Assembly: GCA_028689875.1 (NCBI GenBank)
Contig: JAQVCG010000010.1
Coordinates: forward strand, 6,873-41,824
From: Candidatus Rifleibacteriota bacterium
GTDB taxonomy: Bacteria; Muiribacteriota; Ozemobacteria; Ozemobacterales; Ozemobacteraceae
Direction of reading: 5' to 3'
Length of the DNA stretch: 34,952 bases
The notes under the pieces were generated by a model, which worked only from the letters and a program-made list of their open reading frames with translations, had not been told where the DNA came from and did no database searches. The position numbers and the translations under genes are program-made. Positions 3,013 to 34,803 of this stretch are shown here, in pieces (position 1 is the stretch's first letter; each line of letters opens with the position of its first letter).

Positions 3013-4295
3013 TAAACTTTCAGTTGTGAATTTAAACGGTCAATCTGATTTTGAAGCGAATCGCTGTCAGGTTGAAATTTTGGAATATCAAGGCACTGTG
3101 AATAAAGTTCGTAATGTTTTATGTCAGCCGCTTCTAACGCGGTGGTGTCGCTTCCTCCGCCAATGTTGCCAAGGGCGTTGGTGGCGCAGTCTAAAATCAT
3201 CTGCTGTTCAAGGCTTTCTTTAAGCTGTCTAACTTGTAATATGCTTTCAAAAAACTCTCGGGTTTCGGGATACTTTTTGATTATTTCTTCAGATGGAAGC
3301 GGTGCCGGCATAAGCTGTTCATGCCAAAAATAGCGCATTTTGAATGATAATTCCATGGGAACATTCTGAAAGCCTTCTTGGTATGGTTCATGAAGCGGAC
3401 CGTGCCCGCCCAACTGGTTTCCTTCTATCATTTCGCGTCTGAAAGCTTCTTGGGTTTGCTCCTCGGGGCTATAAACAAAAGATTTTAATGAATCGGCGAT
3501 TGTGTCCAGGTGCTGCATCCAGCAATATCTGAGAATTATGGCTTCGCCTTCTCTGATTTTGTTATTTATAGAGACTATTTTGTCTTGAAAAGATACTTTA
3601 TCTTGCGCCACTATCGCATACACATTGTTACGCCATATTATAGCGGTAGTTTCGAGCGATATTCTGGCAAATTTCTTTATTCTTGTGGTCAAGGTTTTGA
3701 TGGCCTGATAAAAATTGTCAAAGGACATCTTTTCGCTTTGTCCCATTGTGAGCCAATTCTTATCGAAAAAAGAAGTTAAAATCATTTGCAGGCCTGAAAA
3801 CATTTTTCCTAACTGGTCTTCTATTTTAAAGTGAACAGAGTAGGGTGAGGCGCCGCCACGCAATTGAAGTCTTGAAACCAATAACGATACGGTAACTGCT
3901 CTAAATAATGATATAAAATCATAAATGATGTAGAGCAAAGCCGGCCAAAAAGCGATAAAGCTGAAAGGAAACCCAGTGCCTGAAATCACCATGGTTCCGC
4001 ATATTATCATCACTAAAGAGGCGATATAAAAATTTTGGCTTGAAGAAAAATCTGCCAAATATCTTTTAAATTCGCTTGTCAGGTTTACAATAAGATTCCC
4101 TCGCGGATTAACATTCGAAGGCATATAGTAAAATTTTGCAGGAATTGCGGGCGCTCTGTTTAGATATTCTTTTTCGATGGGTGTTAAATTGTCGAAAACG
4201 GGCCTGGATATGCCGCATAAAGGACAAACGTGCGATGTCGAAGAAACAGAGGCCTGACATTGTCTGCAAACGCTTTTAAGCAAATAGTTTTTCAT
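3012..4295 (-). CDS. zinc-ribbon membrane protein of unknown function
   Basis: A 427-residue protein that I do not recognise as a named family. The N-terminus has two CxxC pairs (Cys10/Cys13 and Cys24/Cys27) that fit a zinc ribbon. Residues about 90-150 contain two hydrophobic segments with a short loop, likely a membrane hairpin. The remaining 270 residues look soluble and mostly helical, with no catalytic motif that I can see. AAGGAA lies about 8 nt before the ATG. The gene sits 24 bp after the lipoprotein metallopeptidase gene and overlaps the first ABC gene by one base, so it is almost certainly co-transcribed with the exporter. It could be an accessory or regulatory factor for that exporter; this is inference from position only. 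Confidence 0.85.
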   Translation of the reverse strand: MKNYLLKSVCRQCQASVSSTSHVCPLCGISRPVFDNLTPIEKEYLNRAPAIPAKFYYMPSNVNPRGNLIVNLTSEFKRYLADFSSSQNFYIASLVMIICGTMVISGTGFPFSFIAFWPALLYIIYDFISLFRAVTVSLLVSRLQLRGGASPYSVHFKIEDQLGKMFSGLQMILTSFFDKNWLTMGQSEKMSFDNFYQAIKTLTTRIKKFARISLETTAIIWRNNVYAIVAQDKVSFQDKIVSINNKIREGEAIILRYCWMQHLDTIADSLKSFVYSPEEQTQEAFRREMIEGNQLGGHGPLHEPYQEGFQNVPMELSFKMRYFWHEQLMPAPLPSEEIIKKYPETREFFESILQVRQLKESLEQQMILDCATNALGNIGGGSDTTALEAADIKHYELYSQCLDIPKFQPDSDSLQNQIDRLNSQLKV

Positions 4296-4319: not shown

Positions 4320-6041
4320 TTAATTTGGGGTAAGCCTAACCATTCTTAAGCTAACGCCTTTGCCTTCTGAGGCAATTCTGAATGTGTTATTGCCTGAATA
4401 ACCGGCAGGCTGCGTGATTTTATAAAACACTGCTGCGCCGGGGTTTACGTATGTTGTAATTGAACCATTGCCAAGATCTATGTCTTTGGTCAATTTATAG
4501 CTTGATTCTGTATTTAAAATTGCCGGGAACATTGTTTCATTAAATTTATGCTTAGAATCAGTAATCTGCGATTTTTGAATTATGCCTCTAAAAACAAGCA
4601 CTTCATTTAATACAGCCGTTTGCCAATCTTTTTTTACTTGTTCATAGTTTCTGCCGTCGCCTTGAGATAGCAACAGAGTTTCAATGTTTAGAGCGCTGCC
4701 GATCGGCGTTGAGCTATTGTGCATGGCTTTTATAAAGTCGCTGCGAAATTGTTCATACATATAAAAATTGAAAAGCCCTTTTTGCCCGTAATGAGCATAG
4801 GTGCTTTCCCAAGACTCCATGCCTGTGTTGCTGCTTTCTAACCAACTTCCAAACCTGTTATCGTTTGCGACGCTGTCGGGTTCAATAGCACCTGCACCTG
4901 AAACATCCGCAATATATCCGCTTGATGTGGTTTTGCTCATCGCTGCTCGACGCTGTCTATAACGCGCCTCTACGCCTACTGACAAAGATTCATCGAGCCA
5001 TTCATATTCTTGATTTTGCATATTTAAACCTTTTGCGCTGAAATTAGCTGCATGCTGCAATTCGTGCGCAATGGTCTCACGGGTTGCTGCCCGCCAGTAT
5101 TCACCCTGAAACTTTGCAGAATAGCCCGGTGCCCAAATACCTATCATGTCTCTGTTATTACCGTTTCCCGGATTGCTAAAGTCTGCAGTATTGAATAACC
5201 CTGCAAAACCCAGACGGTTATATTCTTTAGAAAAAACGATCGAAAGCTTGCCGTCGCTGTCTACGTCTTCAGCAAGTCTGTAATTGTCATTAAATAAAGG
5301 GTAAATAAAGCTTTCAAATTCGTCGGCAAAATGATTCAAATCATCGCTTGTAATGTTATAGGTGCCCGAACAAGTAATGTCTACGAAAAATTTTGCGTGT
5401 TCAGTTATTTTTAGTAATTTTGTTGTTACATTGTTATAGCTTGTAGCATTGCCGTCTGTGATTATTTTAATAATCACTTCGTCATTCAAATTTTCGTTCG
5501 AATGATTTACAGAACCTCTTAAACTGCCCTTAGCGCCGTTTCTTAGTGATTGAAACTTGTTTTGTCTTCTCAGATTACTTTCTGTGAGAGCCTTCGCTTC
5601 TAAGTTGCCCCATCTTGTATTTGTCATATCTTGTGAGGGAAGGGGCGTATAATGTTGCTCATAAATCGAAGCCTTTATCGAGGCGGCGGTTTCGTGTAAA
5701 AGCTGAATACTTTGAGCACTGGTGTGTTCATTGTTCACTATCAGGCTGTAGACCACTTCACGATTTCTTTCTACAGGCAGTTCAACCGAAATCCCTTGAG
5801 CTACGTCGCTGAATTCTAAAATTGTGCCCGCTTTCGCAAGAAGCTTTGCACTGTCAGTTGCGGTTATATAGACCCCGGCTCCTATTACGGTCTTTGCGTT
5901 AGGGTCATTGTCGCCTGAGGTCGGTAAGAGTGGAACCGACGAGCTGCTCGAACTGTCAGAACCTAAAATGTCGCATCCGCTTATGAAAAATGTGCTTATA
6001 AACAGAATAAATATCAATACTATGTGGGGCGATTTTTTCAT
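4320..6041 (-). CDS. lipoprotein zinc metallopeptidase, M30 (hyicolysin)-like
   Basis: With the ATG at 6041 the product has 573 residues; a TTG seven codons upstream is possible, but GAGGC lies about 10 nt before the ATG and supports it. Residues 1-23 form a lipoprotein signal peptide ending in a lipobox (ISGC, Cys23), followed by a Ser-rich linker. The zinc site is HELQH at 326-330, and a WLDES motif about 20 residues later offers the third ligand, Glu351. HExxH followed by a W-L-(N/D)-E-(S/G)-L motif is typical of M30 peptidases. The protein should be anchored in a membrane and face outwards or to the periplasm. It lies between an exported S9 peptidase gene and the zinc-ribbon/ABC genes. 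A TATAAT-like hexamer at 6076-6081 could give it its own promoter, but no good -35 box accompanies it. Substrate unknown. Confidence 0.82.
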   Translation of the reverse strand: MKKSPHIVLIFILFISTFFISGCDILGSDSSSSSSVPLLPTSGDNDPNAKTVIGAGVYITATDSAKLLAKAGTILEFSDVAQGISVELPVERNREVVYSLIVNNEHTSAQSIQLLHETAASIKASIYEQHYTPLPSQDMTNTRWGNLEAKALTESNLRRQNKFQSLRNGAKGSLRGSVNHSNENLNDEVIIKIITDGNATSYNNVTTKLLKITEHAKFFVDITCSGTYNITSDDLNHFADEFESFIYPLFNDNYRLAEDVDSDGKLSIVFSKEYNRLGFAGLFNTADFSNPGNGNNRDMIGIWAPGYSAKFQGEYWRAATRETIAHELQHAANFSAKGLNMQNQEYEWLDESLSVGVEARYRQRRAAMSKTTSSGYIADVSGAGAIEPDSVANDNRFGSWLESSNTGMESWESTYAHYGQKGLFNFYMYEQFRSDFIKAMHNSSTPIGSALNIETLLLSQGDGRNYEQVKKDWQTAVLNEVLVFRGIIQKSQITDSKHKFNETMFPAILNTESSYKLTKDIDLGNGSITTYVNPGAAVFYKITQPAGYSGNNTFRIASEGKGVSLRMVRLTPN

Positions 6042-6110
6042 TATATTTTTGCCTCGTTTCAAATCTTTGACGCTAATTATACTGATTAAGCGCTCAAATT
6101 GCCATAAGGA

Positions 6111-9722: not shown

Positions 9723-11588
9723 ATGACTGATAAAATGGACGGTTTTTCAATGGATATTGAGCAGGCGCAACGAGATAAGCTGCAAGCTGTATTCCCCGAG
9801 TGTTTCACTGAAGGACGTTTGGATATCGATAAGCTTTTGTCCCTTTGCGGTGAATATATCACGGACGATTTTGAAAAATATGAGTTCAAATGGAAAGGTA
9901 AAAGCGATTGCTTGCGCCTTGCACAGCGACGTAGTACGGCAACTTTGCGCCCCTGCCCGGAAGAAAGCGTAAACTTCGATACAACACAAAACCTCTATAT
10001 CGAGGGCGACAATTTAGAGGTTTTGAAGCTTCTGCAAAAATCATATTTTCGCAAGGTCAAGATGATTTACATAGACCCACCGTACAACACGGGCAATGAT
10101 TTCGTGTATGAGGACGACTTTTCCGACCCAATGCGCCGTTATATGGAAGTTACGCAGCAGACGACAAAAAGCAATCCCGAAACAATGGGACGCTATCATA
10201 CAAATTGGCTTAATATGATGTACCCGCGTTTGCGGCTTGCCGCTAATCTCATGCAAGATGATGGGGTTATTTTTATTTCTATTGATGATAATGAAGTAGA
10301 CAACCTTAAAAAGTTATGTAATGAGGTTTTTGGGGAAGAAAATTTTGTTTCACAGCTTGTATGGGAGCGAGCCTTTTCGCCAAAAAATGACGCAAAATAC
10401 ATTTCTAACAGCCATGACTATGTATTAATGTATGCAAAATCCATTGAGAGTTTTCAAATAGGCAGATTGCCACGAACAGAAGAAGCTAATGCTCGTTATC
10501 AGAACCCTGACAACGATCCACGAGGAGTGTGGATGTCGAGCGACATATCAGTAAAAACATACAATGTTGAATCTGATTATCCAATCACGGCCCCTTCGGG
10601 GCGAGTGATTGAGCCTCCAGCAGGGCGTTGCTGGAGGCTCTCAAAAAATGCATTTTTGGAGAGACTCCAGGATAATAGAATTTGGTTTGGTCCAGACGGA
10701 GATGGGGTGCCTAGAATAAAACGGTTTTTATCCGAACTGAAATTTGACGGTATGGCGCCAACTTCTATTATGTTTTTTAAAGAAGTTGGACACAGCCAAG
10801 AGGGAGCACAGGAACTTTCAAAATTAATGGATGGCGGGTTCTTTAATGGACCAAAGCCTACAAGATTACTAGGTCGTTTATTAAGGCTTGCTAATATTAA
10901 GAAAAATGATAATGATATAATCCTTGACTTCTTCTCTGGCAGCGCAACAACGGCTCATGCCGTTATGCAGCTTAACTCTGAGGATGGCGGCAACCGCCGC
11001 TTCATCATGGTGCAGTTGCCCGAGGTGTGCGACAAGAAGAGCGAGGCATGCAATGCCGGATATAAAAATATTTGCGAAATCGGCAAGGATAGAATACGTC
11101 GCGCCGGTAAGAAAATCTTTGAAGTTGCTGATGACCTGCTAACAATTGGGGGAATTAAACCATCTGTAGATATTGGCTTTAGGGTGTTCAAATTGGATAG
11201 TTCCAATATGAAGTTATGGGACGATACTCCTATAGAGGATAACAACATTGAAACATTGCTTGACCGTATGGCGGCGCACATTGACGGTTTGAAGTTCGAC
11301 AGGAAAGATAGTGATTTGGTTTATGAAATACTGCTTAAAATGGGATACTCTCTTACAGAAAACGTGACCGTGCTTAACATAGACGACTTGACTGTTTACA
11401 GTGTGGGAGAGAGCAATTCTATGCTTGTCTGTTTGCAGCCTGGAATTACTGCCGAGCATATCGAAAAAATGGCTGTATTGCAGCCGAAAAAAATAGTTAT
11501 TGCGGAAAATGCCCTTGCGGATAATTCCGCTATGTCAAACGCCTTTTATCTTCTTGAAAACAAAGGCATTGAGCTGAAAACGGTGTGA
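9723..11588 (+). CDS. mod: type III restriction-modification system, DNA adenine methyltransferase subunit (Mod)
   Basis: A 621-residue beta-class N6-adenine methyltransferase. The N-terminus has the type III Mod block NLYIEGDNLEVLKLLQKSY (residues 90-108), catalytic motif IV DPPYNTGNDF (118-127), a target-recognition region in about 190-390, and the AdoMet-binding motif DFFSGSATTAH (402-412). Motif IV before motif I defines the beta class. AGAGGAG lies before the ATG. Mod should recognise a short asymmetric site, methylate one strand, and also serve as the recognition subunit of the Mod-Res nuclease. The stop is close to the next start. Two strong inverted repeats lie inside the recognition-region coding sequence (10583-10640). 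No homopolymer or tandem repeat suggests phase variation. The recognition sequence cannot be predicted here. Confidence 0.96.
   Translation: MTDKMDGFSMDIEQAQRDKLQAVFPECFTEGRLDIDKLLSLCGEYITDDFEKYEFKWKGKSDCLRLAQRRSTATLRPCPEESVNFDTTQNLYIEGDNLEVLKLLQKSYFRKVKMIYIDPPYNTGNDFVYEDDFSDPMRRYMEVTQQTTKSNPETMGRYHTNWLNMMYPRLRLAANLMQDDGVIFISIDDNEVDNLKKLCNEVFGEENFVSQLVWERAFSPKNDAKYISNSHDYVLMYAKSIESFQIGRLPRTEEANARYQNPDNDPRGVWMSSDISVKTYNVESDYPITAPSGRVIEPPAGRCWRLSKNAFLERLQDNRIWFGPDGDGVPRIKRFLSELKFDGMAPTSIMFFKEVGHSQEGAQELSKLMDGGFFNGPKPTRLLGRLLRLANIKKNDNDIILDFFSGSATTAHAVMQLNSEDGGNRRFIMVQLPEVCDKKSEACNAGYKNICEIGKDRIRRAGKKIFEVADDLLTIGGIKPSVDIGFRVFKLDSSNMKLWDDTPIEDNNIETLLDRMAAHIDGLKFDRKDSDLVYEILLKMGYSLTENVTVLNIDDLTVYSVGESNSMLVCLQPGITAEHIEKMAVLQPKKIVIAENALADNSAMSNAFYLLENKGIELKTV
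10583..10640 (+). repeat. two adjacent inverted repeats inside mod
   Basis: The first pairs AATCAC (10583-10588) with GTGATT (10605-10610) and contains an inner CCCC/GGGG stem around TTC. The second is a perfect 12-bp palindromic stem, GAGCCTCCAGCA (10611-10622) with its complement at 10629-10640, around a 6-nt loop. Both fall in the conserved Mod segment encoding TAPSGR and PPAGRCWR, so the protein sequence partly constrains them. They could form strong mRNA hairpins. Confidence 0.8.
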
Positions 11589-11599
11589 GGGGAATTGAC

Positions 11600-12139
11600 A
11601 TGAAAAAATTCCTTGAATCTTCTTGGACAATAGGAATTGCAACAACTTTACTTGGTTTCATTCTTACCGTTAGTTATGACTTAATAAAGGAAAAACAAGT
11701 ATTTACAACGATAGGGAAGTTCTTTTCAATATTATGGGGTTGGATTATCACATTTCTAACTTTTGATTTGAAAGTATGGTGGGTATTGTTAGGAATTGCT
11801 GTTATATTTTTTGCTTTATATACTATTGTAAAAATTATCGAAAAGAAAGAGCTATTGAAACCTGAATTTACTGACTATACACAAGATAAATTTCGTATAT
11901 GGAAATGGTCTTGGGGGTGGAAATTTAACAAAATGAAAAATGTTTGGCAAATTGTAAATCTACAAGCTCATTGCCCCAAATGTGATACTCCGATGATTAA
12001 TAAAGGCTTTGGCATATTTCAATGTCCCCGATGTGCTTATAATCCAGAGAGTTATGATCATGAGGAACCATATGAAGTTGTAAAGGTAATTTCTGATAAC
12101 TTGTACCGTCAAAAAAATAAGGGAGAAATACAATCGTGA
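11600..12139 (+). CDS. membrane-anchored zinc-ribbon protein between mod and res
   Basis: I chose ATG 11600 (179 residues) because GAGGGG lies 7 nt upstream; a GTG at 11585 would add five residues and overlap the mod stop. The N-terminus has hydrophobic segments at about residues 9-26 and 58-80, with a third possible at 40-56, so it is an integral membrane protein. A Trp-rich stretch follows (100-108), then a zinc ribbon with Cys125/Cys128 and Cys142/Cys145. There is no enzyme motif. Its stop overlaps the GTG of res (GTGA), so it is translationally tied to res. Standard type III systems consist of mod and res only, so this is a passenger. Membrane placement with a ribbon that could bind nucleic acid suggests an effector or sensor role, but that is inference. 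Confidence 0.83.
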   Translation: MKKFLESSWTIGIATTLLGFILTVSYDLIKEKQVFTTIGKFFSILWGWIITFLTFDLKVWWVLLGIAVIFFALYTIVKIIEKKELLKPEFTDYTQDKFRIWKWSWGWKFNKMKNVWQIVNLQAHCPKCDTPMINKGFGIFQCPRCAYNPESYDHEEPYEVVKVISDNLYRQKNKGEIQS

Positions 12140-15100
12140 AATTGAAGTTCAAGCAACAAAATTTTCAGACTGACGCAGTTAACGCAGTATGCGCTCTTTT
12201 TGACGGTCAGCAACGAGAAACTTCTGCGTTTAGCATGGAGCGCAGCGGTAATGAAATGCGCTTGTTTAAAGATTTTGGTCTTGCAAATGCGCTATGCTTG
12301 AACGACGAGGATATTGTTGAAAATATGAGGGCGGTACAGAGAAAAAATCTTTTGCCGCAGACAGAGGATTTGCAATATCGGCAGTTTTCAATTGAAATGG
12401 AAACGGGTACTGGGAAAACCTATGTTTACACAAAAACCATTTATGAGCTAAATCGTCTTTATGGCTTTACAAAGTTTATCATTGTAGTGCCGAGCGTTGC
12501 AATACGTGAGGGTGTATACAAATCCTTGCAAATCACTCAGGAGCATTTTTCAGCGCTGTATGATAATGTACCTTGCCGTTATTTCATATATAATAGCGCA
12601 AAACTGTCTGATGTGCGCTGCTTTGCCACAAGCGCTAATATTGAGATTATGATTATCAATATAGACGCTTTCCGCAAAGCAGAAAATGTAATAAATCAAC
12701 AGCAAGACCGTTTGAATGGCGATGCTGCAATTCGCTTAATACAGGCCACAAATCCTATCGTCATAATCGACGAGCCGCAGAGCGTTGACAATACTCAAAA
12801 GGCAAAGGATGCTATTTCGTCCCTTAAGCCCATGTGTGTTTTCCGCTATTCAGCTACCCATCGTGAAAAGGTTAACCTACTTTATCGCCTAACGCCTGTT
12901 GATGCTTATCAAATGGGACTTGTAAAGCAAATATGCGTATCAAGCAATCAAATTGCCGGAGGATTTAATAAGCCGTATATCAGACTGTTGTCTGTTTCTA
13001 ATGACAACGGGTTTCGTGCGCGTGTTGAAATAGATATTGCAGACAAGGACGGAAAGGTTAATAGAAAATCAATTATCGTAAAACAGGATGCGGATTTGTA
13101 TAAGTTGTCTGGAAACCGCAATTTATACGAGGGATATACCATTTCTGGTATTGACTGCACGCCTGGAATGGAACAGATAGAATTATCTGGTGTGGATGAA
13201 GTGCAACTTGGAAAATCCATGGGTGATTTTGACGAAAATATAATCAAGCGTGCGCAGATACGCCGGACAATTGAGGCTCATTTAGACAAGGAATTGCGAT
13301 ATACTGAAAAAGGGATAAAGGTTTTGTCTCTATTCTTCATTGATGAAGTGAAGAAATATCGTAGCGAAGACGGTGGCAAGGGCATCTACGCCGAAATGTT
13401 TGAAGATGCTTACTCTGAATTAATGAAGCTGCCTAAATATGAACAGTTGCGCAGACGCTTTCTCAGCGATGCAGAACGCATACATGACGGATATTTTTCG
13501 CAGGACAAAAAGGGCAACTACAAAAACACCAAGGGCGACACACAGGACGATTACAACACCTACAACACGATTATGAAAGACAAAGAATGGCTTTTATCTT
13601 TCGATTGCCCCTTGCGCTTCATTTTTTCCCATTCTACGCTAAAAGAAGGGTGGGACAATCCAAATGTATTTCAGGTTTGTACCTTAATTGAACAGAAAAG
13701 CTCACTTACTGCTCGTCAAAAGGTTGGACGTGGCTTACGCCTTTGCGTTAATCAAAATGGAGAGCGCATAGAGGATAGGGATATAAACCTTCTGCATGTC
13801 ATGGCGAATGAAAGTTTTGCAGAGTTTGCAGATAAGCTGCAAAGGGAAATTGAAGATGAAACAGGTGTAAAGTTTGGCGTATTGAAGCTTGACTCGTTTA
13901 GCGGAATGGTATTTGAAGAAACTGTTACCGAGGTAAATCCGCTGACAAAGGAACAGGCTACAACGCTTATTTCCCACTTAGCAGGCGAGGGTTTTATAAA
14001 ATCCGATATGCCCGCATCTGCGCCTTTTGAATTGCCACAGGAGCTTGAAACTGCAAAAACAAAAGCCATAGAGGTTATTGCCCGCGAAGGTGTCATTACT
14101 CCGGAAGCCATAATCGAACTTACTGCGCAAAAAACTGTTGTTGTGCAAAAATCCATTTCTTATGACAATGCGCAAGAGCTTTTGACTTGTTTTGAAAACA
14201 AGGGATATATAACGAAGTCAGGCAAGATAAAAGATGGTATGAAAACCGCCATACAGGGCGGAACGCTTGAACTGCCACCGCACTTGGAAAGTGCAAGGAC
14301 GCAGATTGAAAATGTGATACGTCGTGCTGATACAAAACCGCATATTCGTGATGCTTCGAGGGATGTTACAGTATGTCTGAAAAAGGAAGTCACTGTATCG
14401 CAGGAGTTCTTAGAATTGTGGGATAAGATAAAGCAAAAGACCACATATCGTGTAAAAATTGATGAAAGCGAATTGGTGTACAGAAGCATCAAGAGATTGG
14501 TGGACATGGCGCCAATACCCATGGCGCGTTTAATTACTCAGACAGCTGATATTCATATTGACAATCCGGGTGTAACCTACACCGAGCGCGGTATAAAAAC
14601 TGCTACTATTTCGGACAGTTATTTGTCACTCCCAAATATTCTTACAATTATAGGCGAACAAACTTTAACTAAACGTGCGACTGTTTATGAAATACTCAAA
14701 GAAAGTGGGCGCCTTTCGGATTTTCTGAACAATCCGCAGATGTTTATTGAGAATGTGACGCAGATAATTTTAGATGTTCGTCGCACTCTTGCGATAGATG
14801 GTATTAGTTACAAAAAAATCTATGGTGAAGAATATTTTATACAGGAGATTTTTGATAGCGCAGAGCTTATCGCTAATCTGGACATAAACGCTATAGCTGT
14901 AGAGCATAGCGTTTATGATTATGTTATTTATGACAGTACAACGGTTGAAAAGCCGTTTGCACTTGAGTTGGACGATGATCCCGATGTAAAGATGTTTTTT
15001 AAACTGCCGAGTCGTTTCAAGGTGGATACGCCTATAGGCACATATAATCCCGACTGGGCGGTTTATCTTGAAATTGACGGAATGAAAAAACTTTATTTTG

Positions 15101-15255
15101 TGCTGGAAACAAAGGGAAAGATTAATGAGCTTGATTTGCGAGGTCGTGAGGATTTGAAAATCCGTTGTGGTAGGGCGCATTTCAAAGCATTAGGCAATGG
15201 CGCAGAACTTAATGTGGCTACCAGATGGAAAGATTTTAAGACAAGAAATGTTTGA
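12136..15255 (+). CDS. res: type III restriction enzyme, Res subunit (helicase and endonuclease)
   Basis: A 1039-residue protein from GTG 12136, with GGGAG about 10 nt upstream and a GTGA overlap with the previous gene. The superfamily 2 helicase core has Walker A METGTGKT (88-95), Walker B DEPQ (212-215), motif III SAT, and the GWDNPNVFQVCTL and QKVGRGLRL motifs of the second RecA-like domain. The C-terminal nuclease shows a PD-(D/E)xK signature: Asp973 in NPDW and Glu991-Thr-Lys993 in LETKGK. The length is normal for the family (about 900-1050). Res would hydrolyse ATP to move along or slide on DNA from Mod-bound sites and cut beside them. All key residues are intact, so the system looks active. 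No clear terminator follows. Confidence 0.96.
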   Translation: MKLKFKQQNFQTDAVNAVCALFDGQQRETSAFSMERSGNEMRLFKDFGLANALCLNDEDIVENMRAVQRKNLLPQTEDLQYRQFSIEMETGTGKTYVYTKTIYELNRLYGFTKFIIVVPSVAIREGVYKSLQITQEHFSALYDNVPCRYFIYNSAKLSDVRCFATSANIEIMIINIDAFRKAENVINQQQDRLNGDAAIRLIQATNPIVIIDEPQSVDNTQKAKDAISSLKPMCVFRYSATHREKVNLLYRLTPVDAYQMGLVKQICVSSNQIAGGFNKPYIRLLSVSNDNGFRARVEIDIADKDGKVNRKSIIVKQDADLYKLSGNRNLYEGYTISGIDCTPGMEQIELSGVDEVQLGKSMGDFDENIIKRAQIRRTIEAHLDKELRYTEKGIKVLSLFFIDEVKKYRSEDGGKGIYAEMFEDAYSELMKLPKYEQLRRRFLSDAERIHDGYFSQDKKGNYKNTKGDTQDDYNTYNTIMKDKEWLLSFDCPLRFIFSHSTLKEGWDNPNVFQVCTLIEQKSSLTARQKVGRGLRLCVNQNGERIEDRDINLLHVMANESFAEFADKLQREIEDETGVKFGVLKLDSFSGMVFEETVTEVNPLTKEQATTLISHLAGEGFIKSDMPASAPFELPQELETAKTKAIEVIAREGVITPEAIIELTAQKTVVVQKSISYDNAQELLTCFENKGYITKSGKIKDGMKTAIQGGTLELPPHLESARTQIENVIRRADTKPHIRDASRDVTVCLKKEVTVSQEFLELWDKIKQKTTYRVKIDESELVYRSIKRLVDMAPIPMARLITQTADIHIDNPGVTYTERGIKTATISDSYLSLPNILTIIGEQTLTKRATVYEILKESGRLSDFLNNPQMFIENVTQIILDVRRTLAIDGISYKKIYGEEYFIQEIFDSAELIANLDINAIAVEHSVYDYVIYDSTTVEKPFALELDDDPDVKMFFKLPSRFKVDTPIGTYNPDWAVYLEIDGMKKLYFVLETKGKINELDLRGREDLKIRCGRAHFKALGNGAELNVATRWKDFKTRNV

Positions 15256-16856: not shown

Positions 16857-18131
16857 TTATCTGAATACGTAACCGAGTTTGTTGATTAAGTTGCCTGCTG
16901 CAGAAGCTACGCCCGAAAGAATGTTTCCTGCGGTTTTGCCGACTGCTCCGGCGATTTTGAGGGTGGTTCCAAGAACTACTGCGCCGCCGCCTGCTATTTT
17001 GTTAGCTGCTCCGGATTGAGCGAAAGTTGTTTTGCCCCAGTCGTTGATCTTGTTGCCAAGACTGCTTACGCCTGTTGAAACAACTCCTGCTGCTGCGCCG
17101 GGTATGCCAAGCACGCATTTTGTGGTGCCGCCCAGTAATCTCATAATGTCGAAGTGTTTGAACCCTGTTACAACGTCGTTGATACCATTAGCTATGTTGT
17201 CTTCGGTGGCTGTGCTTATGTTAAAGTTGAACAGGCTCGGGCTCTTGTCTTTGGTTTTGGTGCCCTTAATGTCGATCATTACATTTTTGTAACCAACAAA
17301 ATTGCTGCCAAAACCGCTGCCCAAAGGTGCGTTCCATCTTTGTAAGAAGGTTTCGGTATCCATTTTGTAGCCGCTCTTGGTGCCCCAATATGAGTCGCGC
17401 ATTTCAACAGAAACTACTTTACCTTCTGCATCACAGTCGTAACCGTAAATGGTAACCCAGTGAGGAGTGCCGTCAGCTGTTGACATTAAAACCATTGCCG
17501 GCAAACCTGCGTCAACTTTTTTTACCAGGTCAGATAAACTTGAGTTTTGTCTTGATACAGCGTCTACGCCGTTCATATTCAAGTATTCGGTTATTGTGGT
17601 CGGAGCAGTGAAAATTCCGGCGGGGTTAGTGTCTTCGTAAATCTTTTGTGAGTCGGCAGTGATGCCCAAACCTTTGAATACGGCTGTCATTGCGAATTGG
17701 CCGCAATAGTTGTTGCCGTTAATCAATATCTGCTGTTCTTCGTAGCCTTCTAAGCGCTTTTCAGTGGTTGCAGAGTTTTCGGTTGCTGTGCTTTCGCCGC
17801 CGTTACCGATTGCAAAAACTTTTTTTACGGTGTCTGTAACTTTTGTGACAATGCCTTTAGCTTTTTCTTTTGTTTGATCGGAAGGAGTGAACGCTGCGCG
17901 TGCTTCATCGTATCTTTTTTTGGCTAGCGCGACTTCTTTGCTTAGCTCGGCAGCCAAACTGGTTTTTGCATCTTGAACAGCTTGTGTGTACTGTTTGAAT
18001 TTGCGTTCATAGTCCATTTTCAGCTCTTCTATTTGCTGCGGAATACTGACCGCCATAACAGCAGGAACTGATAAAACAGCTAATGCAAACAAGATAAATA
18101 CTAAATATTTAACAGAACTGACGCTTTTCAT
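16857..18131 (-). CDS. exported C39-like papain-fold protein with coiled coil and Gly/Ala-rich tail
   Basis: A 424-residue protein with a Sec signal peptide (residues 1-27, ending VMA). Residues 30-85 are a charged helical, coiled-coil-like segment. The central domain (about 130-290) has a C39_2-like papain fold: Cys143 in NNYCGQFAMTA, His224 in PHWVTIYGYD and Asp246 in RDSYWG form a plausible catalytic triad. The last 95 residues are rich in Gly, Ala and Val with repeated small-residue patterns, similar to membrane-inserting or glycine-zipper regions. GGAGG lies about 6 nt before the ATG, behind a strong promoter at 18176-18204. The protein is probably active outside the cytoplasm as a peptidase or a papain-fold binding protein. 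The tail is unusual for the family and its role is unknown. Confidence 0.82.
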   Translation of the reverse strand: MKSVSSVKYLVFILFALAVLSVPAVMAVSIPQQIEELKMDYERKFKQYTQAVQDAKTSLAAELSKEVALAKKRYDEARAAFTPSDQTKEKAKGIVTKVTDTVKKVFAIGNGGESTATENSATTEKRLEGYEEQQILINGNNYCGQFAMTAVFKGLGITADSQKIYEDTNPAGIFTAPTTITEYLNMNGVDAVSRQNSSLSDLVKKVDAGLPAMVLMSTADGTPHWVTIYGYDCDAEGKVVSVEMRDSYWGTKSGYKMDTETFLQRWNAPLGSGFGSNFVGYKNVMIDIKGTKTKDKSPSLFNFNISTATEDNIANGINDVVTGFKHFDIMRLLGGTTKCVLGIPGAAAGVVSTGVSSLGNKINDWGKTTFAQSGAANKIAGGGAVVLGTTLKIAGAVGKTAGNILSGVASAAGNLINKLGYVFR

Positions 18132-21030: not shown

Positions 21031-22452
21031 ATGGCAATATCTTATCGCAACTTAAAACTTGGAGCTGTTTTGGCTTTTTTCATGGTCAGCTCTGTTTTGT
21101 CGGTTTTTGCCGGCAATTTTATATTAAAATATGAACAAGTTGTTACAGACTCATACGGCAACGAAATCGGGTACAGAACTTCTTCGATAACAAATCTGAG
21201 CCAGTTGCCCGCCGGTTCTCCCTGGCGAGACTATTTGAATCTGAAGCTTGATTCAGGTAAAACTATTTACCAGTATGCTTCAACTATCTCTAAAAATTTG
21301 AATAAAGATTTTACTTTGACCATAAGCGACCGTGACAGCAACTCTTATAGTTGCAAAACCGGATCGGGCTACAATGTTAACTTGTATGGTTATGTTAACA
21401 ATTATGCTTCAGATGCAAGCAAAACCTTTTTGTTTTTGCACGAGTTCGGTCATACGACCATGTTAAATTCTTATCCCGGTTCATATGATTTTAACGACTT
21501 AAACTATGGCACAGATGGCGTTCATTATCTTGACGAAATATTGCCGAACTATAATACGGCATGGGTTGAAGGTTGGGCGAATGCTTTCGGCGCATATAAC
21601 AATAAAGGAAAAGTTTTCTCTATCGATATTAATTCTGTTTCTTCGTTGTCATTCTTAAGCGACAATACTTTCGAGCAAATGACAAGAAACGAATTGTTCG
21701 TGAGTAAGGCTGTCTACGACTTTATGAAGCGTATTCCCGGCGGGCAGGCTTCTGTTTATGATACCTTTGCAAAAAGCGGGCCTCACAATTCGTTGTATGA
21801 CTTTTGTAACGCTTACGCGAAGTTGTATCCTGCAAATAAGGCTGCTATTGCCCAGGTTTTGGTTGAATGTTCACAGGGTAAGGCCACGTTAGACGACATT
21901 CTTCTGTATGTGAACGGCGGTTCACGCACAGTAAGCCGAGATCTTTATAATTACCTGACAGGGGCAGGTTTGATCAAAACAAGCACCGGCAATCAGGTTG
22001 CTTCAAACAACAACACATCGAACACACAAAAACAATCTTTCTTCGGCAGGATATTCAGCTGGTTTGCCGGTTTGTTCAGTTCTAAAGAAGCCGGATCAGG
22101 CGTAGCTTCTTCTGTCGGTTCAGCGCTAAACAGCGTGTTAAGCCCGAGTGTTGGGCAAAGTGCGAATGGCGGCAGTGATTACAAAATCTCTCTTGATGGC
22201 AGTCTCGCAGTTAAAGGGTCTGTTGGCCAGGGTTCGGGAGCTGTGTCAGCGGCATCACCGACCGTAGATGCGAAAATTACGAATGCCGATTATGACGATT
22301 ATCCGGCTCTGCAAGAAATGTATTACACTCATTTTGCAGAATACAATAAGTTAATGCTTGATGGCAATGGCGATAAAGAGCGCATCAATGCCGTAAGACA
22401 AAAAATGATTGCTGTAAAAAATAAATTAAAAGAGCTTGAAAAAGGTAGATAA
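21031..22452 (+). CDS. exported HExxH metallopeptidase of unrecognised family
   Basis: A 473-residue protein with a Sec signal peptide (residues 1-28, ending FAG). HEFGH at 137-141 is a zinc-binding HExxH motif, and Glu180 in AWVEGWANAFGAY, 39 residues later, is a likely third ligand in the style of gluzincins. Residues about 330-420 are rich in Ser, Gly and Ala with low complexity, and the last 50 residues are a charged coiled-coil-like helix. It has its own promoter and is closed by a terminator at 22466-22508, so it is a single-gene unit. The protein probably acts on extracellular or periplasmic substrates. I cannot name the family. Confidence 0.82.
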   Translation: MAISYRNLKLGAVLAFFMVSSVLSVFAGNFILKYEQVVTDSYGNEIGYRTSSITNLSQLPAGSPWRDYLNLKLDSGKTIYQYASTISKNLNKDFTLTISDRDSNSYSCKTGSGYNVNLYGYVNNYASDASKTFLFLHEFGHTTMLNSYPGSYDFNDLNYGTDGVHYLDEILPNYNTAWVEGWANAFGAYNNKGKVFSIDINSVSSLSFLSDNTFEQMTRNELFVSKAVYDFMKRIPGGQASVYDTFAKSGPHNSLYDFCNAYAKLYPANKAAIAQVLVECSQGKATLDDILLYVNGGSRTVSRDLYNYLTGAGLIKTSTGNQVASNNNTSNTQKQSFFGRIFSWFAGLFSSKEAGSGVASSVGSALNSVLSPSVGQSANGGSDYKISLDGSLAVKGSVGQGSGAVSAASPTVDAKITNADYDDYPALQEMYYTHFAEYNKLMLDGNGDKERINAVRQKMIAVKNKLKELEKGR

Positions 22453-29426: not shown

Positions 29427-30953
29427 TTACCTAAACATCATTGTGCTGCTTAAAAAGTTATTATAGAAATACTCAAAATCAGCTTTGTTAATGTTTGTTG
29501 GCACTTGTTGTCCGTCAGTAACAAAAGCCAGCGGAGTATTCTTTTGCAGCATGATTGCCAGAAGGGGCCCAATACTGTTAGTCTCGTCCAGTTTTGTAAA
29601 AATTAGGTTGTCGTAGCCTACAAGACCGAATTTTTCTAGGGTTTCTAACATGTCAATATACTTTGCGGTTGCCGAAAGAACTAAGTATTTCGAGGCATTT
29701 GGCAATCTTTCAAGAATATCAGACAATTTTTCTAATTCAGTGGTTTCTTTTTGGCATCTGCCTGCGGTGTCTACGATAATCAAGTCTTTATCTTGATGTT
29801 CTTTAAGCTTATCGTCAATATCTGTTGCACTGTAGATGATTTCCATGTTTATGTCTAAGTGCTGTGCATAGTGTTCAAGCTGTTCGGGTGCACCTATCCT
29901 ATATGTGTCAAGGGTGAAAAAAGCCACCGATTTCTTTTGTTTTTTACTTAGGGAATAAATTGCCGCAAGTTTGGCTATTGTAGTGGTTTTGCCTACCCCT
30001 GTCGGGCCTATCAAAACAATAACCTTCGGGCCTTTGCTGTTGTCAAAATCTAATTCATCTGAAAACTTAAGTTTATCAATGCACCAGTTTTCATATGCTT
30101 TAGCCGTTTGCAGAGGGTTATTTTGCGCTTCAGGAGTCAGCGATTCTGAAACGCCTTCAATGATCTTTTGGATTACATCGTTTGGGGTTTCAACCTCTGT
30201 AAGATTCCTTTTCATCTCATTGAGACCCTTTGGCAACTTGTAATTATCATAAATTAAGCCTTGAGACTGGCTATTTAGCTGCTTAATTTCCTCTCTCATT
30301 GTGTTAAGCATGCCTTCCATTTGGCGCAAAAGCTGAATGCTTAAAACATTTGGCGAATTGTATTCTGAATTTTTCGGGTTTGTTTTGTTCTCTTTCGTGG
30401 GTGAAACCGGAGAATTTTTTGAGGAAAAGATCATGGGGTCCAGTTTCGTCTTATTCTTATGTTCAACAAGCTTTTCGAGCATTACTCTTGCCGTAAAATC
30501 CGAATCGTCTGCGCATTGGTCTATTTTTTGTGAATGAGGAGGTTTGACACCTTCTTGAATTGATCTTATACCGTTTACAGAGCGCATCTTTCTGGCCCCC
30601 TGATTTGGTGAGTAGGTTATTGGCTGCTCAGGAACTCTGAGTTCCGGAAGCCCGTCTTCTGTTATAAAGTCCGGTATCGGAACTTCCGGTGCTGTCTCTC
30701 TTTTTATTTGGACAGGCGGCATTTCTACGTTAATTTGAGTGAATTTTTTAGCAGCTTTTGTATTATTGTTTTCAATTTTAATTGTCAACTCATACATTTC
30801 TTTTTTTATTAAACCTAATAGCTTTGATTTGTAGATTGTCTTACCGTCAATAATTGAAAAACCGTCTTTTCCGTATTTTTCTTCGGCATTCAATTTCGCT
30901 TCAAAGGAGGTATCAGCAGTAATTATTTCTAATGAATTATAATCTGTTGTCAT
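29427..30953 (-). CDS. flhF: flagellar SRP-type GTPase FlhF
   Basis: A 508-residue GTPase of the SRP/FtsY family that positions the flagellum and starts basal-body assembly at the pole. The N-terminal 200 residues are a long, low-conservation B domain. The NG domain follows, with the P-loop GPTGVGKTTT (316-325), the FFTLDTYRIGAPEQL motif, IVDTAGRC and the TKLDET guanine-binding region. Its ATG overlaps the stop of flhG (ATGA) and a near-perfect AAAGGAGG lies 8 nt upstream. The partner FlhG is the next gene upstream. All GTPase motifs are intact. Confidence 0.95.
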   Translation of the reverse strand: MTTDYNSLEIITADTSFEAKLNAEEKYGKDGFSIIDGKTIYKSKLLGLIKKEMYELTIKIENNNTKAAKKFTQINVEMPPVQIKRETAPEVPIPDFITEDGLPELRVPEQPITYSPNQGARKMRSVNGIRSIQEGVKPPHSQKIDQCADDSDFTARVMLEKLVEHKNKTKLDPMIFSSKNSPVSPTKENKTNPKNSEYNSPNVLSIQLLRQMEGMLNTMREEIKQLNSQSQGLIYDNYKLPKGLNEMKRNLTEVETPNDVIQKIIEGVSESLTPEAQNNPLQTAKAYENWCIDKLKFSDELDFDNSKGPKVIVLIGPTGVGKTTTIAKLAAIYSLSKKQKKSVAFFTLDTYRIGAPEQLEHYAQHLDINMEIIYSATDIDDKLKEHQDKDLIIVDTAGRCQKETTELEKLSDILERLPNASKYLVLSATAKYIDMLETLEKFGLVGYDNLIFTKLDETNSIGPLLAIMLQKNTPLAFVTDGQQVPTNINKADFEYFYNNFLSSTMMFR

Positions 30954-31885
30954 TTTTTTGAACCTCCTTTAAAAAATTTAGATACTTTGTCGAAAAATCC
31001 TGCGTGGTTTTGGTCTGTAATGGTTTCCGGTATTTCAAAAATTGTTTTTGAGACAATTTTTCTCAGCTCCGATGCTGCGGGCGACATCGGCGAGAACACC
31101 ATCAGCGGCGTTTGCTGCCTTATCGCGATATGCATGTTCCGGTCTTGGGGCAGGCTTCCCCAAAATTTAATGTCAAAATTTAAAAAATCCTTAGCTACCT
31201 TTGCCAGTCTATCGTAAACGTGAACCCCTTCTTCGTCTTCTTCAACTCTGTTTACAATTAGTGATACTTTTGATTCGGGGCTTTGATTGCTTAAAACCTT
31301 AATAATTCCGTATGCGTCGGTTAAAGATGTGGGTTCGGTGTTGGTTATTACTAAGACTTGGTCTGCAGCGCGGCAAAACGATAATACGCTGTCGCTTATG
31401 CCGGCTCCGGTGTCGATTAACAAAAAATCTGCTTTGTCTTCTAAGAAGCCTAATTGTGCAAAGAGTCTTTCAGATTTTTCGTTTTCAATGTTTGCCAGCT
31501 CTCTTACGCCTGAACCACCGGCAATTATTTGAACACCGCGAGGGCCCTGAACCATTATTTCGTCGATATTTTTATCGCCGTTTAAAACGTCTATAAGGCT
31601 GAAAGTGGGCCTAACGCCAAAAACTACATCAATATTTGCAAGCCCTAAATCTGCGTCTAAAACTATAACTTTTTGCCCTGCCTGCGACAGGCATATAGCC
31701 ATGTTTGCCACCAAACTTGTTTTACCTACGCCGCCTTTTCCTGAGGTCACCGTAATGGTGCGAGCAATCTTTTGTCCCGCTTTTCTGGGAGTTCGCGCCT
31801 CAAGTCGTTTAAATACATAGGGCTGTATTTCTTGGCGTGTTTCGGCAATGATGGCTTCGATCGGCTTAACAATGGCTTCAGACAT
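30950..31885 (-). CDS. flhG: flagellar number regulator FlhG (MinD-like ATPase)
   Basis: A 311-residue ParA/MinD-type ATPase (also called YlxH or FleN). Residues 49-56 hold the deviant Walker A GKGGVGKT, followed by VIVLDADLGLANIDVVFG, the switch region LLIDTGAG, and the C-terminal KVAKDFLNFDIKFWGSLPQD. FlhG stimulates FlhF GTPase activity and limits flagellar number. The N-terminus has a short extension (residues 1-40) that may contain the FlhF-activating segment. It is immediately downstream of the degenerate paralogue at 31886-32710 (TAAATG) and overlaps flhF, so the three are coupled. Confidence 0.95.
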   Translation of the reverse strand: MSEAIVKPIEAIIAETRQEIQPYVFKRLEARTPRKAGQKIARTITVTSGKGGVGKTSLVANMAICLSQAGQKVIVLDADLGLANIDVVFGVRPTFSLIDVLNGDKNIDEIMVQGPRGVQIIAGGSGVRELANIENEKSERLFAQLGFLEDKADFLLIDTGAGISDSVLSFCRAADQVLVITNTEPTSLTDAYGIIKVLSNQSPESKVSLIVNRVEEDEEGVHVYDRLAKVAKDFLNFDIKFWGSLPQDRNMHIAIRQQTPLMVFSPMSPAASELRKIVSKTIFEIPETITDQNHAGFFDKVSKFFKGGSKK

Positions 31886-32710
31886 TTATATTGTTCCCGG
31901 TATTTGGTATACTACATTCTCATTTAAAACAAACAAAAAGTCGATACACTGCATTTTTGTTTTTTGTGCTTCAGAAGAAAAATGAATGATACTTTTTCCA
32001 TTTCCTTCTGCGTTACTAGAAAGTACCACCCCTAACCCTATTAGGTCAAGCCCCAAAAAATCTTTTGCAACTTTTTTTATTTTATTTGAATGCTTTATGC
32101 TTGTATAGCCGTTTTCTGAGGTGAACTCTAATAATTCAATTTGCGAAAAATGTCCGTTGTTTCTTAATACTTTAACCAATTCGTAACATTTTATTGCGGC
32201 ATCGGGGTGATCCGGCACCATCAAGCATATTTTATTGACGGCATTCATAAGTGCGAAAGCAGTTTTCAGCTCGGTATCTTCAATTGATATCCATACTTCC
32301 GAATAATTCTTTAAATTGTGGTTTAACTGCCTCAAAAACCGTATTCTCTCTTGCTGAGGCCCTTTAATTATCGCCGCAAAATCATTTTGTTTTGGCAAAA
32401 CGGTAATTGTTTCGGTGTCGGTTTTTATAACTTTTGGCGTCTGATATCTGAGCGTGGTGTGGGTTTTGGGGAGCAGCGCTTCATTGACAAGACCCGCTTG
32501 GTCCCAGAGACATGATTTGTTATTTCCCATTATTTCTGTTATCCAAGAAGTTATTTCAGGGAAGCAGCCTCGAAACTCTTGCGGAAATACCAAGGCTGTA
32601 GCGCTGTATTTGTTTGTTCTCGGAACAGAACCAAGAAATTCTTCGGGTGATTCTTGGCTCGTTCCGACTGTTTCAACAAGATTTTGAAGTGTTGATGCTT
32701 GATTATACAT
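31886..32710 (-). CDS. FlhG-like protein lacking the P-loop (degenerate paralogue)
   Basis: A 274-residue protein that would be called hypothetical on its own. By eye it aligns with FlhG next door. WDQAGLVNEALLP (69-81) matches FlhG LDADLGLANIDVV. NAVNKICLMVPDHPDAAIKCYELVKVLRNN (156-185) matches RAADQVLVITNTEPTSLTDAYGIIKVLSNQ. KHSNKIKKVAKDFLGLDLIGLGVVLSS (206-232) matches the YDRLAKVAKDFLNFDIKFWGSLPQ part of FlhG. At the P-loop position it has FPQEFRGCFPE instead of GKGGVGKT, and the switch Asp-Thr-Gly-Ala-Gly is missing. It should not hydrolyse ATP. It lies 5 bp after flhA and directly before flhG. It may be a partner or decoy for FlhG or FlhF. Confidence 0.72.
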   Translation of the reverse strand: MYNQASTLQNLVETVGTSQESPEEFLGSVPRTNKYSATALVFPQEFRGCFPEITSWITEIMGNNKSCLWDQAGLVNEALLPKTHTTLRYQTPKVIKTDTETITVLPKQNDFAAIIKGPQQERIRFLRQLNHNLKNYSEVWISIEDTELKTAFALMNAVNKICLMVPDHPDAAIKCYELVKVLRNNGHFSQIELLEFTSENGYTSIKHSNKIKKVAKDFLGLDLIGLGVVLSSNAEGNGKSIIHFSSEAQKTKMQCIDFLFVLNENVVYQIPGTI

Positions 32711-32715
32711 ATCGA

Positions 32716-34803
32716 TTATTTATCTTTTTTAGGTTGAATAGTTATGACGCCTACAGACTCAATTGCAATAGTATTCGGTATTTCTTGATAAGAAAGCACC
32801 ACAAGTCTTGGAAGCATTTTTTCGCTTAACTGCTTAATGCTTCTTCTTAACAATGAGTTGCATATGATTATGGGGGTTAGCCCCTCGTTCATGACTCTTT
32901 CGATTTCAACTCTCATTGTTTGCAGCAATATTTGAATAGAGTTTGGCTCTAATGCAAGCTGCATCATGCCGTCTATCTTTTGCATTGCATTAGACAGCAT
33001 TTGTTCAAGTTTGTGGTCAAGTGTTAAGACTCGCATTGTGCCTGTTTCGTCCGTTAAATTCTTGCATATGTGGCGTTTAAGGCCTTGTCTTGAAATTTCT
33101 GTAAGCGTGTCAATGTCTTTTATTCCGCCGCAATCTGCCAAAGACTCCAGAACGCTTGCGAGGTATCTTATTGATACGCCTTCTGCCAGAAGGTTCTGCA
33201 ATATTTTCAATAAAACGGGTTGACTGACAATGTTGGGTATAACTTCGTCGTGTAATTGTTTGTAGTTTTCTTTGAGTTTGTCGAGCAATGACTGCAATTC
33301 TTCTCTGCCCAATACTTCTGCGGCATTTGCTCTGATGATTTCAGTAAGATGTGTTGCTATAACCGTTGATGGATCAACGACTGTGTAACCGGCGTTCTCG
33401 GCGCGTTCGCGCAAAGAGCTTTGTATCCAAATTGCCGGAAGTCCGAATGCAGGTTCTTCAACCTGAATTCCGTTGATGTTGCTTGTTATGTTGCCGGTTA
33501 TCATTGCCAGTAAATGGTCGGGCAATATTTCGTATCTTGCAAATTCGCTGCCTTTAATTTTAAACAGATACGATGAAGGCGGAATTTGTATGTTGTCTCT
33601 GATTCTTATAGAAGGAACTATAAGCCCTAAGTCCATGGCTATTTGCCGTCTTATGAGGGTGATTCTGTTGAGCAGGTCACCTCCTTGATTCACGTCGCAT
33701 AAGGGTATTAAATTGTAGCCTATTTCCAGTTCCAGTTTGTCAACCTCAAGTAATGAGGTAACATCTTCGGGACCGGCAGAATCTTTCTTTTCGGCTTCGT
33801 CTTTTAATTCCTCTTCTTTAGCTTTAGTTTCTGTAACTGTTTTGTAAGATATATAGGTCATAGAGCCAAATACTGTGGCTAAGAACAATAAACTGAACTT
33901 AGGTAATCCGGGAATGGCACCGAGAAAGAATAAGAGAGCAGAGGTGATTCCCATAACTTTGCTGTTTCTAAATAATTGTCCGGTAACTTCTTCGCCTAAG
34001 TCGCCGTCAGAGGCGGATCTTGTAACGACGATACCGGTCGCGACAGATATCAAGAGTGCCGGCAGCTGCGAGCAGAGGCCGTCGCCGACAGTAAAAAGCG
34101 CGTAGGCCGACAAAGCTTCCATGGGCGCTTCCCCCCTTAATAATACTCCGATTGCAACACCGGCCAAAAGGTTGATTCCGGTAATGATTAGGCCTGCAAT
34201 GGCATCACCTTTAACGAATTTGCTCGCACCGTCCATAGACCCAAAAAAGTCTGCTTCTCGATGCAGGTCTAGTCTTCTTTTTGTGGCGGTTTCTTGGTCT
34301 ATGGCGCCGATGTTTAAATCTTCACCTATGGCCATGCTCTTAAGGGGCATTTCATCGAGGGCAAATCGGGCCGATACTTCGGATATGCGCTCTGCACCCT
34401 TGGTAATAACCATAAATTGTATGATAACTATAATTGTAAAAATAACAATACCGACAATGTAGTTGCCGCCTACGACAAAATTGCCGAATGCCTTAATCAG
34501 AGCCATAGAGGCACCTTGCCCTGAAAGAATCAGTCGAGTTGTGCTAACGTTTAATGCCAGTCTGAAAACAGTTGTTAACAGCAATAAGCTCGGAAATGAT
34601 GAAAACTGTAATGGTTCTGTATTGTAGACTGATACAAGTACCATAACTACGCCGAGTGTTATGTTTATGGTTAAGAGCAAATCGAGTAAAGTCGGAGGAA
34701 TAGGCACTATCATCATTACGACGACAGAAACAACTCCAAAAGCAAAGATGATATCTTTGTTTTTGGTTATGAATTTAGCTGATAATATCTCTTTAAGATT
34801 CAT
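32716..34803 (-). CDS. flhA: flagellar type III export gate protein FlhA
   Basis: A 695-residue protein. The N-terminal 330 residues hold about eight membrane helices with the FHIPEP signature region GAERISEVSARFALDEMPLKS (136-156) in the cytoplasmic loop, and the C-terminal half is the soluble cytoplasmic domain that binds export chaperones and substrates. FlhA is the core of the flagellar export gate and responds to proton-motive force. Length and motifs are normal. GAGGG lies about 10 nt before the ATG, in the 24-bp gap after flhB. It heads the flhA, FlhG-like, flhG, flhF run on the minus strand. Confidence 0.97.
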   Translation of the reverse strand: MNLKEILSAKFITKNKDIIFAFGVVSVVVMMIVPIPPTLLDLLLTINITLGVVMVLVSVYNTEPLQFSSFPSLLLLTTVFRLALNVSTTRLILSGQGASMALIKAFGNFVVGGNYIVGIVIFTIIVIIQFMVITKGAERISEVSARFALDEMPLKSMAIGEDLNIGAIDQETATKRRLDLHREADFFGSMDGASKFVKGDAIAGLIITGINLLAGVAIGVLLRGEAPMEALSAYALFTVGDGLCSQLPALLISVATGIVVTRSASDGDLGEEVTGQLFRNSKVMGITSALLFFLGAIPGLPKFSLLFLATVFGSMTYISYKTVTETKAKEEELKDEAEKKDSAGPEDVTSLLEVDKLELEIGYNLIPLCDVNQGGDLLNRITLIRRQIAMDLGLIVPSIRIRDNIQIPPSSYLFKIKGSEFARYEILPDHLLAMITGNITSNINGIQVEEPAFGLPAIWIQSSLRERAENAGYTVVDPSTVIATHLTEIIRANAAEVLGREELQSLLDKLKENYKQLHDEVIPNIVSQPVLLKILQNLLAEGVSIRYLASVLESLADCGGIKDIDTLTEISRQGLKRHICKNLTDETGTMRVLTLDHKLEQMLSNAMQKIDGMMQLALEPNSIQILLQTMRVEIERVMNEGLTPIIICNSLLRRSIKQLSEKMLPRLVVLSYQEIPNTIAIESVGVITIQPKKDK

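Follow-up and report, generated by a model that had tools for sequence, protein, structure and literature searches.

In an uncultured member of the Ozemobacteraceae (Candidatus Riflebacteria), the gene between flhA and flhG encodes a diverged homologue of FlhG, here called X, in which the ATP site is gone. X retains the FlhF-activating motif of FlhG in most species and the C-ring-binding residues of FlhG in all of them, and the motif has been lost from the FlhG encoded next to it. Judged from these sequences, the functions of FlhG are probably split in this family between two proteins, X activating FlhF and acting as an adaptor to the C-ring without nucleotide, and the neighbouring FlhG serving as ATPase and membrane switch.

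FlhG ancestry and the lost ATP site of X

The window, by which we mean the whole stretch of 34,952 nucleotides analysed, was compared with metagenome-assembled genomes. Its minus strand carries flhA, X, flhG and flhF in this order (Table 1), with 5 bp between flhA and X, 0 bp between X and flhG and an overlap of 4 bp between flhG and flhF. X is encoded in the flagellar cluster beside flhA and flhF, an operon place that it has in common with FlhG, and the ORF coordinates and all 22 genomes with the gene agree with the position between flhA and flhG given in the initial annotation. Elsewhere in the window, a Type III restriction-modification set is found on the plus strand (9723..15255), composed of an N6/N4 DNA methylase (9723..11588), an ORF of 184 aa and a ResIII/RE_endonuc protein (12136..15255). 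At E 1e-5 Pfam has no match for four long ORFs (424-580 aa), three of them on the minus strand (3012..4295, 4320..6062 and 16857..18131) and one on the plus strand (21031..22452).

Table 1. Genes of the flhA-flhF region of the window and sites within X
Feature	Positions	Strand	Basis
flhA	32716..34803	-	PF00771 3.4e-250
X, ATPase-dead FlhG homologue	31886..32710	-	Open ORF, 274 aa, ATG start; FlhG homology; kept in 22 genomes
X residues 3-9, NQASTLQ: weakened DQAxxLR, Gln kept	32684..32704	-	DQAxxLR in 19/22 relatives
X residues 44-51: counterpart of the P-loop, lost	32558..32581	-	FlhG alignment; Walker A lysines 0/22
X residues 69-74, WDQAGL: remnant of DADLGL	32489..32506	-	Asp-Gln invariant in X
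X residues 140-146: counterpart of switch II (LIDTGAG in FlhG), lost	32273..32293	-	Asp 0/22
X residues 176-219 with K180, K210, F218 (Geobacillus K177, R207, F215): putative FliY-binding face	32054..32185	-	Ungapped 4rz3 alignment
flhG, ATPase intact, without DQAxxLR	30950..31885	-	P-loop GKGGVGKT; PDB FleN 2.4e-52, FlhG 1.5e-51
flhF, SRP-type GTPase on which X is proposed to act	29427..30953	-	PF00448 6.8e-41, TIGR03499 8.8e-49

No Pfam or NCBIfam model matched X at its cut-off; BLASTP aligned it with the neighbouring FlhG over 74 aa (E 3e-7). A profile of 22 X proteins searched against PDB revealed FlhG of Geobacillus (4rz3 and 4rz2, E 2.4e-8, ungapped over 86 residues) and FleN (about 1e-6). 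The profile-profile comparison proposed in the initial annotation, run against FlhGs of other phyla, gave a probability of 98.4% (E 5.9e-15) over 221 columns starting at the N-terminal helix. The structure prediction proposed there likewise yielded the FlhG fold and not an unrelated one: AlphaFold models of the window X (pLDDT 76.7, pTM 0.77) and of the DQAxxLR-bearing X of a Candidatus Rifleibacterium genome, G016 (pLDDT 80.8, pTM 0.80), both had FlhG as the top three Foldseek matches in PDB (E 7.5e-10 and 5.1e-9, respectively). The TM-scores of these matches are moderate (about 0.6 for both models), hence X is assigned to FlhG on the concordance of sequence and structural matches.

Thus, X has a MinD/ParA-type fold closest to that of FlhG (also known as YlxH, FleN or MinD2), with the elements in the same order as in the Geobacillus protein. 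The second-best structural match after Geobacillus FlhG is FleN of Pseudomonas (5j1j, 5jvf, 8p53), a member of the FlhG family that, contrary to X, binds ATP and acts as FleQ antiactivator. MinD shares the superfamily fold and matches X less well than FlhG does; we know of neither a DQAxxLR helix nor a C-ring partner in MinD.

The FlhG-like blocks and the missing P-loop and switch-II aspartate, all reported in the initial annotation, were recovered when X was aligned with FlhG. In X, residues 44-51, within FPQEFRGCFPE, stand opposite the P-loop GKGGVGKT, WDQAGLVN stands opposite DADLGLAN, and VKVLRNN and KVAKDFLGLDL align with the corresponding blocks of FlhG. None of the 22 X proteins has the deviant Walker A motif GKGGVGK(T/S), the Asp of the switch-II motif D(T/S)(G/A)AG or the Asn of the VNR motif, and profile, profile-profile and structure searches together with these counts bear out the earlier view that X is derived from FlhG and has lost its nucleotide site. 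X also stops short of the C-terminal amphipathic membrane-targeting sequence, which in the neighbouring FlhG reads GFFDKVSKFFKGG (alignment, by inspection). FlhG and MinD dimerize via bound ATP, and the motifs required for ATP-dependent homodimerization are missing from X, which, if functional, would be ATP-independent.

X was present in 22 of 24 Ozemobacteraceae genomes and in 22 of the 22 with a complete flhA; of the two others, one (G007) has no flhA match and in the second (G022) flhA is cut by the contig end. The gene is therefore found in every close relative whose flhA place is visible, contrary to the absence that the initial annotation had named as grounds for doubt. All 22 genomes share the order flhA-X-flhG, with flhF next wherever the contig extends so far, and the X frame is open in each of them, across about 11 genera. 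The dN/dS of X is 0.07-0.23 (Nei-Gojobori, five close pairs), showing that X is under purifying selection; its rate of change is about that of FlhF and higher than that of FlhG. A contig scan with a single X protein gave no match, and one with the X alignment found 18 loci, on contigs of Ozemobacteraceae genomes, along with one ordinary FlhG (Thermobacillus). No X was found on viral contigs, and beyond the Ozemobacteraceae all matches were ordinary FlhGs, the contig scan using one short pattern that a very diverged X could escape.

Activating motif and C-ring residues

Known FlhG proteins switch off FlhF, a GTPase that places the flagellum, with a short N-terminal helix. The Gln of this DQAxxLR helix is co-catalytic for the GTPase of FlhF (PMC12826062). 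The strict motif begins 19 of the 22 X proteins, the co-catalytic Gln is kept in 21, and the motif is retained even in X proteins that are 19-25% identical to that of the window. In the model of the G016 protein it lies on a helix (residues 2-18) separate from the fold, a region of low pLDDT in the model of the window X. In the genus of the window both the Asp and the Arg of the motif are changed (NQASTLQ), and activation by X is possibly weak there; NQ at the motif start is as well seen in some FlhGs of other phyla (L161, L163), so such variation occurs in ordinary FlhGs. The X of a further genome, G010 (L042:7062-7871, plus strand), starts with MQLITDNCV, having lost the activator helix and kept the remainder, and FlhF activation in this species may be weak or lost. 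A search for a change in FlhF common to those species in which the motif is weakened or lost found none.

DQAxxLR is absent from all 20 FlhGs of the family, the N-terminus of which is instead a conserved PIEAIIAETRxxIQPYVFKRLEAR. Among the 146,106 residues of ORFs at these loci, DQAxxLR was counted 20 times, 19 times at the N-terminus of X and once in an ORF that runs antisense to X. ATPase and activator helix are therefore encoded by different genes. Hence the description of the neighbouring FlhG as intact holds for the ATPase and fails for the FlhF-activating motif. X had been proposed to add a further level of control to a complete FlhG; with the helix on X and not on FlhG, it probably does half of FlhG's normal work instead. 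The helix lends specific support to the earlier suggestion that X could bind FlhF. Motif-less FlhGs without an adjoining X exist in other phyla, and loss of the helix need not demand a partner.

Rates of X and FlhF covary (partial r 0.57). In a branch-level test with operon controls the correlation was 0.50 (p 0.011) and dropped to 0.32 (p 0.15) when three branches were removed, and in the same test the rates of FlhB also correlated with those of FlhF; since the test is marginal and FlhB behaves alike, the covariation is not counted as support.

Furthermore, FlhG of Geobacillus binds the C-ring protein FliY through Lys177, R207 and Phe215, and nucleotide is not needed for this (PMC12327844). 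This paper prints the Arg as 277 in its text and the mutant as R207E; in the PDB chain 4rz3, with an offset of 8, Lys, Arg and Phe stand exactly at 177, 207 and 215. At the corresponding, putatively C-ring-binding positions, all 22 X proteins have Lys, a basic residue and Phe. FliM and FliY of the family both bear the N-terminal peptide LSQxEI(D/N)ALL; FliM had no match in the window's own genome, which is 71% complete.

Tandem FlhGs of neighbouring families and the origin of X

Other Riflebacteria present a range of FlhG arrangements. A single FlhG with DQAxxLR and P-loop is found in family f4, one with DQ(I)xNLR in f5 and one without the motif in f2. In three families, as with X and flhG, flhA and flhF are separated by two genes of FlhG type. 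In f7 and f6 the upstream copy carries the motif (DQAVKLR and DQLSDLR, respectively) and the downstream copy does not, the same placement as in the Ozemobacteraceae, whereas in f3 (L052, L053, L108, L110) neither of the tandem P-loop FlhGs has DQAxxLR. Contrary to X, both tandem copies keep the P-loop. The upstream f6 protein (L107:3044-3940, plus strand, genome G028), with DQLSDLR and GPKGGCGKTT, is very diverged (end branch 2.42) and is perhaps a parallel step toward an X-like protein.

In a tree of X and all FlhGs, X forms one clade (100/100), the FlhGs of the family form another with f2 as its sister, and the downstream copies of f3 and f7 also form a clade. The stem of X is so long (3.15 changes per column) that the tree cannot assign X to a given FlhG copy. 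X likely originated by tandem duplication of flhG followed by division of labour, and the range of single and tandem FlhGs in the neighbouring families fits this origin, with X as the extreme; flhG may have been duplicated more than once. A separate FlhG/MinD-like ATPase (L148:3913-5025, minus strand) has an N-terminal stretch resembling a MerR-type helix-turn-helix, and neither flhA nor flhF was found in the 7.5 kb covered.

Proposed division of labour and rival explanations

In the division that we favour, X would need no ATP to bind FliM or FliY by their N-terminal LSQxEI(D/N)ALL peptides, and it would offer its helix to the FlhF homodimer where a flagellum is forming. The Gln of X would then speed GTP hydrolysis, upon which FlhF would let go, and the helix-less neighbouring FlhG, the motifs of which are intact, would run the ATP-driven monomer/dimer and membrane cycle. 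That X binds FlhF and the C-ring, stimulates the GTPase and affects flagella are predictions from sequence comparison. In B. subtilis, FlhG Q8A resembles an flhG deletion, the distribution of hooks is not discernibly altered in the hydrolysis-dead D65A, and removing the membrane tail has a modest effect (PMC12327844), suggesting that the parts of B. subtilis FlhG are separable. D65A still binds ATP and is constantly dimeric, and is thus an incomplete mimic of X.

The strongest rival is a pure C-ring adaptor: X would serve as a scaffold or C-ring chaperone via its K/R/F face, the helix being unused on FlhF or used in some species only. The K180, basic and F218 positions are indeed conserved more strictly than DQAxxLR, the binding peptide is on both FliM and FliY, the motif is weakened or lost in three species, and X is still retained in the window's genus and in G010. 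However, the persistence of the motif in X proteins only 19-25% identical to that of the window and its disappearance from FlhG point to FlhF use in most species, and we consider the pure adaptor unlikely.

A dead heterodimer partner, as proposed in the initial annotation, would poison or tune the FlhG ATPase dimer. The common ancestry of X and FlhG and the tight, nearly overlapping genes, which suggest co-production, would suit such a partner. With P-loop lysines, switch-II Asp and VNR Asn gone from every X, though, an ATP-bridged heterodimer of X and FlhG is unlikely; moreover, X rates do not track FlhG rates (r -0.29), and a helix-less FlhG would require X for more than tuning. This proposal now appears quite improbable.

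Still less probable is an unrelated role on the FlhG scaffold, such as binding of a transcription or polarity factor, with the kept blocks serving fold stability. Its appeal lies in the very long stem of X and in residues invariant in and peculiar to X (W140, S231 and E264), but X retains precisely those FlhG residues for which functions have been published, and its N-terminal helix does not contribute to the fold. A decaying pseudogene of a duplicated flhG, as the loss of every catalytic motif might suggest, is rejected by the open frames, the low dN/dS and the fixed position in all 22 genomes.

Returning to the split FlhG, we tentatively extend it to an obligate two-protein system in the Ozemobacteraceae, comprising an ATP-free, C-ring-docked FlhF activator and an ATPase that no longer touches FlhF. 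In the literature searched, with most subscription papers outside its reach, no description of a split or ATPase-dead FlhG was found. A split would bear on how far the three activities of FlhG (FlhF activation, C-ring feeding and ATP/membrane cycling) depend on one another when flagellar number and place are controlled. An obligate two-protein FlhG, if true, would mean that FlhF release is uncoupled from the ATP cycle, at which the B. subtilis point mutants merely hint. A conserved gene that escapes the Pfam and NCBIfam models moreover acquires a role that can be tested. If two activities of FlhG do reside on separate genes, the Ozemobacteraceae would amount to a separation-of-function experiment done by nature, within a phylum where single and tandem forms occur as well.
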